Assembly (NCBI GenBank): GCA_031276195.1
Contig: JAISNN010000015.1
Span: 1 to 49,751, forward strand
Reading direction: 5' to 3'
Origin: Clostridiales bacterium
GTDB lineage: Bacteria; Bacillota; Clostridia; Christensenellales; JAISNN01
DNA: 49,751 bases
In this document: in pieces, positions 3,177-34,483 of the stretch
Position numbering within the stretch: the stretch's first letter is position 1
Layout of the letters: the number at the start of each line of letters is the position of its first letter
Made by a program: the position numbers and the translations under genes
Notes under the pieces: model-generated
Databases searched by the model: none
What the model saw: the letters and a program-made list of their open reading frames with translations, nothing else
Told to the model about the DNA's origin: nothing

Positions 3177-3396
3177 AGGTCGCCCCACCCCTTTTGATCC
3201 CCTCCCACGGAGGGGGATATAAGGATAAATAAGGAAAATGCCGTTAAAATGCGTCGTTTTCGTTTTCTATCGTCATTGACGGTAACTGCCGCTTTATTAC
3301 ACATTTTTAACTATTAAATGAAAATATGTTTGATTTAACGCCGTTATATGATAGACGGCTTTTGTGTTTTTGATGAAATCACCTTTAAAGGCAAAC

Positions 3397-3424
3397 AAAA
3401 AAGAGTCGTTATAAAACAACTCTT
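3397..3424 (-). terminator. Intrinsic terminator of the minus-strand small RNA
   Basis: On the minus strand AAGAGTTGTT and AACGACTCTT form a 10-bp stem (one G-U pair) around a four-base loop, followed by TTTTG. Confidence 0.7.
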
Positions 3425-3530
3425 CTTTGCACCGGTCTACGCCATGCCGCTACGAGGCGGCAATTTCAGCCTTGCGGTTCCGGTCGCCGTTTTTCATTTT
3501 AAACGGTACTTGTGACAAAGCATCGGCAAG
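3397..3530 (-). ncRNA. Putative structured small RNA, family not recognised
   Basis: A promoter with perfect consensus boxes (TTGACA, 17 bp, TATAAT; 3535-3563) reads leftward into about 130 nt that end at a 10-bp hairpin followed by a T run (3397-3424). No start codon with a ribosome site is present. Between promoter and terminator the RNA can form nested helices: ACUUG/CAAGU at the 5' end, CCGUUU/AAACGG (3487-3506), ACCGG/CCGGU (3431-3435 with 3480-3484) enclosing GCCGC/GCGGC (3446-3461). I compared it by memory with SRP RNA, 6S RNA, tmRNA and common riboswitches and saw no match. The combination suggests an abundant, independently transcribed RNA. Confidence 0.6.
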
Positions 3531-3534
3531 TATT

Positions 3535-3563
3535 ATTATATAGGGGATTAAAATAAATGTCAA
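3535..3563 (-). promoter_or_regulatory. Consensus SigA promoter for the minus-strand small RNA
   Basis: On the minus strand TTGACA (3558-3563) is separated by exactly 17 bp from TATAAT (3535-3540). Both hexamers are perfect matches. Transcription should start near 3527-3531. Confidence 0.8.
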
Positions 3564-3740
3564 GTTAAAAAACAAGAAAAATGAGGAAATTTTTTTATTT
3601 CGGGATAAAAGGGAGGCTTTTTTATTAGACTATAAATAAACGCGTTTTCGGGTTTTTTAAATCTATGCGCGGACGCCGCATAGGGATTTTTTGCCCGGCG
3701 GACGGTTTACGGCGCGGAAATATTTTGCGGATTTTTTAAT

Positions 3741-3777
3741 TTTGCATAGTATTCTACGCCGTAGAATACTATGCAAA
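3741..3777. repeat. Palindrome family (TTTGCATAGTATTCTAC), full copy 1
   Basis: Two perfect 17-bp arms TTTGCATAGTATTCTAC and its complement are separated by GCC. It lies 135 bp upstream of the spoIVB start. Related full or half copies occur at 5568-5612, 13131-13258, 18035-18270, 27526-27790 and 29306-29375. The 3541-3911 gap also holds a weaker hairpin (CTATGCG/CGCATAG near 3664-3684) followed by a T run. Confidence 0.9.
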
Positions 3778-3911
3778 ACGTAAGTTTTAAAAAACAATAT
3801 CGATTTCCGATACGCCGGCGGCGCGCTTTTTAAAAGGGCGGGAGTTAAACGCCGTAAAAAAAACTGCCGTACACTTCGTGAAACCGGTATGGCTTCTTAG
3901 GAGAAATTTAG

Positions 3912-5483
3912 ATGAAAAAGAATTTTTTTGCCGTCTTGTTTGCCGTATTTATTACGTGCGCGTTCGCTTTTTTCGCCAATTACGGCGCGCCTATATCCGC
4001 GAATAACTTTTCGCATTCCGCTTTGAACGCGGGAGAAGGGGCGGCGTTATCGCGGAATTATTTTGCAAAATCCGCGCTAAACGCGGAAACGGATTTCGGC
4101 ATAAACGCGGGCGCAAACGCGGAATGCAATAACGTTTTTAATAAGTTCGGGCAAGCGTGCGCGGACGTAAATGCAAGAGAGTATTCGGAAAATAATAACG
4201 CTTTAAGGCGGGTAGGTAAATCGGATTTCGGAGCGAACGCAAGAACGTATGCGGAATGCAATAACGCTTTTAGTAAGTTCAGACAAACGGGCGCGGACGT
4301 AAATGCAAGAGAATATTCGGGAAATAATAACGCTTTAAGGCGGGTAGGTAAAGCGGATTTCGGAGCGAATGCAAAGACATATTCGGAATGCAATAACGTT
4401 TTTAGCAAGTTCGGACAAACGGGCGCGGACGTAAGATATGCGGCGGAATATAAAAATAGCGGAAAAATCGGTAAATTTTACGGCGGCTTAAAAAAATTCT
4501 TCGAAAAATTTAAAGAACCTAAACAAAAAGACGACGCGCAATCGGCGCGCGATATCATATATTCGGACGACGTGTATCTGGGCGGCATCCCGATCGGAAT
4601 TTCCTTGACCGCGGACGGGCTTATCATCGCCGGAAAAAATGACATAATCACAAAAACGGGCGTCGTATCGCCGTCCGCAAAATCGAATATTATGAACGGC
4701 GACGTTCTGCTCTTTATAAACGACAAAAAAATCGCAAAACCCGACGACATCGCCGCCGCCCTGAACGGCAATAAGGGCGAAGAAGTTTTGCTGAAACTCC
4801 GCCGCGGCAAAATGGACTTTTTTGAAAGAATTAAGCCCGCGGAAGATTCATTGACGGGCGCAAGACGGCTGGGACTTATCGTGAAAACCGACCTTATGGG
4901 CGTCGGAACTCTGACGTTCGTCAAAAATAACGCGAGATACGGCGCGCTGGGACACCAAATCGCAGACGCGGAAACGGGAATCAAAGATCTGAACGGCGGC
5001 GATATATACGAATGCTCGATCATAGGAATCGTCAAAGGCGAGAAAAATAAGGCCGGCGAGTTGAGAGGGTTGATTAACAAAAGCGGAGGGTCATACGGCA
5101 CGATCGATAAAAATAATCATTTCGGAATATTCGGATCGGCAAACGACGTTATGACACAAAAATTAGAGAAAATTTCCGTGGGCAGCAAGTATGCGGTCAA
5201 ACCCGGGAAAGCGTCTATCAGAACGACAATCGCGGGCGAAACTCCAAACGAATATGAAATCGAAATCGTAAAAACGAATTTTCAAAGCGGAAAAAGCGAA
5301 AAAGGAATGATCATCAGAGTTACGGACGAAAACCTTTTGAAAACGACCGGGGGAATATTGCAGGGGATGAGCGGAAGTCCGATCATTCAAGACGGAAAAC
5401 TCGTCGGAGCGGTAACGCACGTGTTTGTGAACGATCCGTCGAAAGGTTACGGAATGTATATAGATTTTATGTTGAGCGAATGA
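3912..5483 (+). CDS. spoIVB: SpoIVB-like sporulation serine protease (S55) with N-terminal repeats
   Basis: SpoIVB is secreted from the forespore into the intermembrane space and cleaves SpoIVFA, triggering pro-SigK processing. The 523-residue protein has a signal-like hydrophobic N-terminus (about 6-25), a PDZ domain around residues 225-310 and an S55 peptidase domain with the catalytic His in GALGHQI (about residue 348) and Ser in QGMSGSPI (about 487). It is about 100 residues longer than usual because residues 60-180 are an Asn-rich segment of 44-residue tandem repeats. The start follows AGGAG at 3899-3903. It stands alone between two palindromes rather than next to recN and spo0A, as is common in Clostridia. 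Its presence implies a sporulation pathway now or in ancestry. Confidence 0.93.
   Translation: MKKNFFAVLFAVFITCAFAFFANYGAPISANNFSHSALNAGEGAALSRNYFAKSALNAETDFGINAGANAECNNVFNKFGQACADVNAREYSENNNALRRVGKSDFGANARTYAECNNAFSKFRQTGADVNAREYSGNNNALRRVGKADFGANAKTYSECNNVFSKFGQTGADVRYAAEYKNSGKIGKFYGGLKKFFEKFKEPKQKDDAQSARDIIYSDDVYLGGIPIGISLTADGLIIAGKNDIITKTGVVSPSAKSNIMNGDVLLFINDKKIAKPDDIAAALNGNKGEEVLLKLRRGKMDFFERIKPAEDSLTGARRLGLIVKTDLMGVGTLTFVKNNARYGALGHQIADAETGIKDLNGGDIYECSIIGIVKGEKNKAGELRGLINKSGGSYGTIDKNNHFGIFGSANDVMTQKLEKISVGSKYAVKPGKASIRTTIAGETPNEYEIEIVKTNFQSGKSEKGMIIRVTDENLLKTTGGILQGMSGSPIIQDGKLVGAVTHVFVNDPSKGYGMYIDFMLSE
4118..4437 (+). repeat. In-frame 132-bp tandem repeat inside spoIVB
   Basis: GGAATGCAATAACG recurs at 4121, 4253 and 4385, exactly 132 bp apart, giving about 2.5 copies of a 44-residue unit with the motifs AECNN, ADVNAREYS, NNNALRRVGK and DFGANA. 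The unit is a multiple of three, so the frame is kept. It lies between the signal sequence and the PDZ domain. Confidence 0.92.
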
Positions 5484-5567
5484 AAAAAAGAGGATTTTTG
5501 GAATATTTTGTGCGGAATAGGCGAACGGCGGAAAGGGATGCGGTTTTTACTAATCGGAATAAAAAAA

Positions 5568-5612
5568 GTGTTTTGCATAGTATTCTATGACGTAGAATAC
5601 TATGCAAAACAC
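5568..5612. repeat. Palindrome family, full copy 2
   Basis: Arms GTGTTTTGCATAGTATTCTA (20 bp, perfect) flank TGACG, 85 bp after the spoIVB stop. A separate half site TAGAGTATTCTAATT follows at about 5640. It could act as a transcript end, but there is no T run after the stem. Confidence 0.9.
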
Positions 5613-5687
5613 TTGAATAAAGGTTATTTGGGGATTTTTAGAGTATTCTAATTTACTAAAAAAGGTGAATGCGTTTTTTGAATCGGC

Positions 5688-5841
5688 CGCCCCACCCCCT
5701 TGATCCCCTCCCACGGAGGGGAATGTAATGTAATGATAATGAGGAAAGGTCGCCTCGCTCCTGCACCCCTCCCACGGAGGGGAATGTAATGATAATGAGG
5801 AAAGGTCGCCCCACCCCTGCACCCCTCCCACGGAGGGGAAT
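5688..5841 (+). repeat. Three GC-rich hairpin repeats
   Basis: Copies at about 5688-5724, 5751-5785 and 5808-5841, linked by GTAATGATAATGAGGAAAGGT. The remainder of the gap to 6029 is AT-rich with TTTTTATAGGTTATACAAG-like direct repeats and no recognisable gene. Confidence 0.9.
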
Positions 5842-13130: not shown

Positions 13131-13258
13131 AGCGTAGAATACTATGCAAAATGAAAAATAGAATACTATGCAAAACGGAAAATCGGGCAAAAAGCGAAAT
13201 ACTATGCGAGATAGAATACTATGCAAAATGCGGAAAAGAAAAAATAGAGTATTCTAAT
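13131..13258 (+). repeat. Tandem palindrome half-sites in the leader
   Basis: The half-site TAGAATACTATGCAAAA recurs at about 13133, 13159 and 13212, with a degenerate copy near 13190, all in the same orientation, and the opposite half-site TAGAGTATTCTAATT closes the block at 13243-13258. The last one can pair with any of the others in RNA. The block lies between the promoter and the start codon. Confidence 0.85.
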
Positions 13259-31369: not shown

Positions 31370-31398
31370 TTGACAAGGGGCGGTTTTTGTGATATAAT
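31370..31398 (+). promoter_or_regulatory. Consensus SigA promoter for the DUF4097 gene
   Basis: TTGACA (31370-31375), 17 bp, TATAAT (31393-31398) with TGTGA before the -10. Both hexamers are perfect. The leader to the next gene is about 305 nt and holds a GC-rich hairpin element and a tandem array. Confidence 0.85.
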
Positions 31399-34454: not shown

Positions 34455-34483
34455 TTGACAAAGGGGAGTGATTGATATATAAT
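34455..34483 (+). promoter_or_regulatory. Consensus SigA promoter before the G-tract ORF
   Basis: TTGACA (34455-34460), 17 bp, TATAAT (34478-34483). It resembles the promoter at 31370 beyond the boxes (TTTTTTAAAAAA upstream, GGGG after the -35). The next start codon is about 63 bp on. Confidence 0.85.

Follow-up and report, generated by a model that had tools for sequence, protein, structure and literature searches.

What does the minus-strand interval at positions 3395–3563 of this Clostridiales bacterium contig encode, and does its product serve a neighboring gene in cis or a partner elsewhere in the cell? The original prediction described an unrecognized structured small RNA. We examined this proposal across the whole stretch of DNA analyzed (49,751 nucleotides, hereafter the window) and a genus set of six genomes, G000 to G005, of which G000 is the window's own assembly. 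The locus is very probably a real structured RNA gene, and the sequence comparisons below indicate an uncatalogued multicopy small-RNA family, to date encountered in a single genus of gut Clostridia.

Promoter, predicted transcript, and terminator

The gene is preceded by a sigma-A type promoter at 3535–3563 on the minus strand, with TTGACA at 3563–3558, a 17-nt spacer, and TATAAT at 3540–3535, which reproduces the perfect promoter originally predicted with 12 of 12 hexamer matches. It had also been ranked among the strongest in the window, and rightly so: a hexamer scan returned three perfect TTGACA-17-TATAAT promoters against a chance expectation of 0.02. The promoter is kept with its 17-nt spacer in all five full copies of the RNA (see below); the −10 box reads TAAAAT in the G003 copy and TATAAT in the others. 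The other two perfect promoters in the window lie on the plus strand at 31370–31398 and 34455–34483; after the second comes a short stretch that contains a G run and a possible short reading frame.

In every full copy, 5–6 nt separate the −10 box from UGCCGAUG (3521–3528, minus strand), an unpaired segment that is unchanged in all five, and the RNA would start at, or adjoining, this segment. The predicted transcript occupies 3395–3528 on the minus strand, its start placed 6–8 nt past the −10 box and its end at the T run of the terminator, on the basis of sequence and homologs. No reading frame is open in all copies, each of the three forward frames being interrupted or shifted between them, in keeping with the expected noncoding RNA of about 130 nt, with a predicted start near 3528. 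A short reading frame starting AUGAAAAACGG was rejected because it is missing from two copies, which read CUGAAAAA. The intrinsic terminator, a hairpin with a T run at 3395–3430 (minus strand), was correctly foreseen, but not its length: the stem, put at 10 bp, is scored at 16 pairs from 3430 to 3395 when A-U and G-U pairs are counted. This hairpin is present in every full copy, and its sequence varies between species.

Copies within and beyond the genus

The collection of homologs by blastn from related genomes, which the original prediction had proposed, yielded, with the window copy, five full copies in three species and one remnant. The second full copy in G000 lies on contig C33 (11430–11599) and is 84% identical to the window copy; the homology between the two begins at the −35 box and stops at the terminator. 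The remnant, also on C33 (11621–11656), is of the terminator. G001 carries two tandem full copies and G003 carries one. All five have the promoter, its spacing, the 5′ start, and the terminator in common.

A covariance model recovered all five copies in the genus and found no copy in G002, G004, and G005, where part of the first-look candidates were scored; two of these three copy-less congeners are only 69% and 84% complete. Because three of the six congeners have no detectable copy, the RNA would not be essential across the genus. Under stricter filters than those used in the genus, the model gave no credible match among 396 order genomes or 391 class genomes. Pattern scans, which required exact motifs, gave the G003 and G001 copies as the only true members among 84,980 species genomes for the 5′ motif, and the same five copies and no others among the 396 order genomes for the 3′ motif. 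The family is absent from the phages, plasmids, and viral contigs examined, and more distant members may exist. Four matches from outside the family were discarded: those in G013 and G185 (23–24 bits, outside the genus) are in coding-like sequence and have no promoter upstream, that in L060 (24.7 bits) is missing the 3′ half and extends over the end of a protein gene, and L123, the sole viral match of the 3′ motif, is coding-like and scores 10 bits.

Covariation supports a compact fold

The covarying fold consists of two hairpins in series, P1 and P2, followed by a helix, P3, that encloses a further hairpin, P4, and then the terminator, which corrects the several nested stems of the original prediction. 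P1 (3509–3520, minus strand as for all helices here) pairs 3520–3518 with 3511–3509, with two-sided changes in all three pairs. In P2 (3487–3506; 3506–3501 with 3492–3487), 100% of cells are paired and three of six pairs show two-sided changes, and its loop and upper stem, UUAAAHUGAAAA, are invariant at every position except H. P3 (3431–3484; 3484–3480 with 3435–3431) is paired in 92% of cells, with two-sided changes in three of five pairs, and is weak in the G003 copy. Within it lie a conserved strand, GGCURAAAUYGY, then P4 (3446–3461; 3461–3457 with 3450–3446; 100% of cells paired, two-sided changes in four of five pairs), then CAUNGCRUAGAC.

Taken together across the five sequences that make up the covariation evidence, the 19-pair core is paired in 95.7% of cells, with two-sided compensatory changes in 13 of the 19 pairs, a result matched in none of 500 shuffles; the covariation check among relatives that had been suggested thus comes out in favor of the RNA. 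Sliding the partners by 1–3 columns lowers core pairing to 31–40%. When whole columns were permuted with relatedness preserved, an equally strong best helix arose in 0 of 2000 permutations and an equally high total in 1 of 2000. RNAalifold, run on the five sequences with the terminator included, gives two-sided changes in 18 of 38 pairs. Column identity is 75% at unpaired positions versus 58% at paired ones, and this excess is what functional unpaired segments in a structured RNA would give.

The 136-nt RNA, terminator included, folds better than its shuffles (z = −3.6). The core without the terminator is no more stable than shuffled sequence (z = 0.05 in the window copy and between −1.8 and 0.2 in the other copies), and the value for the full RNA is probably owed to the terminator. 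Because the core alone is not unusually stable, the case for structure comes from covariation and not from folding energy. Three further pairings were rejected: a closing helix of CUUUG(U)CAC with GUGCAAAG, which forms in the window copy and is not kept by the others; a pseudoknot between GCC (5–7) and GGC (62–64), invariant in all five copies and without covariation support; and a pseudoknot between CGAUG and CAUCG, which is broken in the window copy and likewise lacks covariation support.

A probable role in trans

As a whole, these observations are probably best explained by a constitutive, stand-alone, trans-acting structured small RNA that binds a partner through its conserved unpaired segments. 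It would be transcribed constitutively from its near-consensus housekeeping promoter and ended by the intrinsic terminator, and its folded helices would present the invariant segments (the 5′ UGCCGAUG, the P2 loop, GGCURAAAU, and GCRUAGAC) to one partner in trans. The RNA would then probably act by binding or sequestering that partner. It may also be abundant and regulatory, as originally supposed. The conserved residues are dispersed over several loops and joints and do not form one seed, which makes a single antisense target less likely as the partner than either a protein or some compact tertiary site. Our best estimate slightly favors a protein over base pairing, and we put forward protein binding itself as a tentative proposal that falls somewhat short of an even chance.

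A trans-acting, Hfq-free base-pairing RNA is a plausible but less probable reading, in which one unpaired segment, with the 5′ UGCCGAUG as the likeliest candidate, would pair with the ribosome-binding regions of target mRNAs. Its position at the inferred 5′ end is where many base-pairing small RNAs carry a conserved unpaired segment, and tandem sibling copies, as seen in G001, are common among such RNAs. However, the complement of UGCCGAUG after GGAG is not enriched over a reversed-pattern control in the three carrier genomes (4 versus 12, 9 versus 27, and 5 versus 7, a crude comparison confined to one segment), conservation is distributed over several segments, and an Hfq gene was not found in the six genus genomes, in which controls were found. 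The best reading is that the small RNA works without Hfq or Ro and is not 6S RNA.

Genomic context and evolution of the copies

A DUF3792 gene and spoIVB flank the window copy, and no minus-strand gene follows it, both neighbors being on the plus strand (DUF3792 convergent, spoIVB divergent). The same two genes are adjacent without the RNA in G001, G002, G004, and G005. The insertion site differs for each copy: the others neighbor a PadR-family gene and a tRNA, have methionine gamma-lyase on one side and a melibiase-like gene on the other, or adjoin an SRP54-type GTPase gene.

The copies also differ in how they have diverged. In the G001 tandem, roughly 40 nt of upstream sequence and roughly 45 nt of terminator region are identical in the two units; their cores have differences in 23 of 107 columns, and most of these fall in P1, P3, and the P4 loop. 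The second G000 copy is flanked by 60-nt direct repeats that are 98% identical. The window copy matches the first G001 copy at 46 of 47 positions in the 5′ half and 38 of 59 in the 3′ half, and its own-genome sister at 33 of 47 and 51 of 58, respectively, for a breakpoint picked after seeing the data; a maximum chi-square permutation test that searches over breakpoints places the switch at the P2/P3 boundary (p = 5e-5). The window copy is a mosaic, for which recombination between copies offers the simplest reading. Uneven constraint is a possible cause, but would poorly explain the reversal.

These patterns raise the prospect of a modular recombining family, in which copies and species exchange a 5′ module (P1 with P2) and a 3′ module (P3 with P4), tandem flanks stay identical, and helices diverge by compensatory change, giving either a mobile RNA cassette or a group of RNAs that share one scaffold and differ by design. 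We regard this as unlikely. Less likely still is a selfish or mobile RNA unit, a promoter-to-terminator cassette that has spread with no benefit to the host. The changing insertion sites, the DUF3792-spoIVB interval that is free of the RNA in the four other genomes where the pair occurs, the tandem copies, the direct repeats and homogenized flanks, and the mosaic window copy would all suit such a unit; against it, we recognized neither a transposase nor a terminal inverted repeat or target duplication, and the folded RNA itself is under selection, as its compensatory changes and conserved loops show.

It is very improbable that the RNA is a cis-acting leader or riboswitch, using its terminator to control a gene downstream. 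A compact fold with conserved unpaired residues ahead of an intrinsic terminator would be expected of one, but the terminator and the conserved core do not overlap, no constant same-strand gene lies downstream across copies, and what comes next in the other copies is a tRNA, another copy, the melibiase-like gene, or the end of a contig. With no relation between the genomic contexts, a cis role is unlikely.

Repeats of other kinds occur nearby and elsewhere in the window. Inside the spoIVB-like gene (3912–5483, plus strand), a 132-bp tandem repeat at 4119–4434 (2.4 copies, 90%) reads in frame as a 44-amino acid repeat in the N-terminal part of the SpoIVB peptidase S55 protein; a P-type ATPase-like gene in L032 (2313–5840) has repetitive in-frame stretches too. 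Tandem units of about 55 bp with CTCCCACGGAGGG are found at 2641–2866, 5688–5841, and elsewhere in the window, where 13 exact matches to CTCCCACGGAGGG all share one orientation. A near-perfect palindrome, TTTTGCATAGTATTCTACG..CGTAGAATACTATGCAAAA, is present at 3740–3778 and 5567–5613, and the core of the palindrome, TAGTATTCTACG, is found again elsewhere in the window, near 13133, 27534, and 29341. This core may be a dispersed terminator-like element.

Comparison with known RNA families

At gathering thresholds, Rfam 15 finds two tRNAs in the whole window and nothing at the small RNA; at E ≤ 10, the window copy gives chance-level matches only. The other copies give only weak, unrelated matches. 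The failure to place the RNA with SRP, 6S, tmRNA, or common riboswitches is thereby confirmed, and neither a Rfam family match nor a lack of conservation, both named beforehand as counting against the proposal, was found. A diverged member of a known family missed by the Rfam models (6S, Y RNA, a SAM-I type riboswitch, or raiA RNA) is the least probable reading of all. In its favor are only short resemblances, to Y RNAs in CCGAUG and to S-box RNAs in AUGAAA..GGC.ACC..AAGG; against it stand the Rfam results, a search of the genus that found no Ro/TROVE protein, and a 6S RNA located elsewhere in the genome. The stretch CCGCAAGGCUGAAA, which we take to resemble 16S rRNA, is not conserved among the other copies, and that likeness was set aside.

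Three known systems offer points of comparison. LhrC and the csRNAs are multicopy sibling small RNAs of Gram-positive bacteria and, like the new RNA, are short, have their own sigma-A promoter and terminator, and have several copies in each genome, whether tandem or dispersed; unlike them, the new RNA has no CU-rich seed, special promoter box, or Rfam match, and its conserved residues are spread across several loops. 6S RNA (RF00013) is likewise a structured, stand-alone RNA of the same genomes, but it has a long hairpin with a central bubble that the new RNA lacks, and it is a separate gene, found as such in five of six congeners and on another contig in the window's own genome; there is no RF00013 match at the small RNA locus. 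The raiA motif RNA (ModT) is also a structured, stand-alone RNA of Clostridia, one whose biochemical function is not settled (PMC11706538). Conservation of that motif spans more than 2,500 species, whereas the new family is present in three genomes and has no Rfam match.

Significance

With this work, a gut Clostridia lineage that yielded no Hfq and no Ro protein gains an RNA family that has covariation support and is missing from Rfam. The family is limited in range, sits at shifting genomic sites, and has mosaic copies, which makes it a small, testable case for the origin, duplication, and spread of new bacterial structured RNAs.
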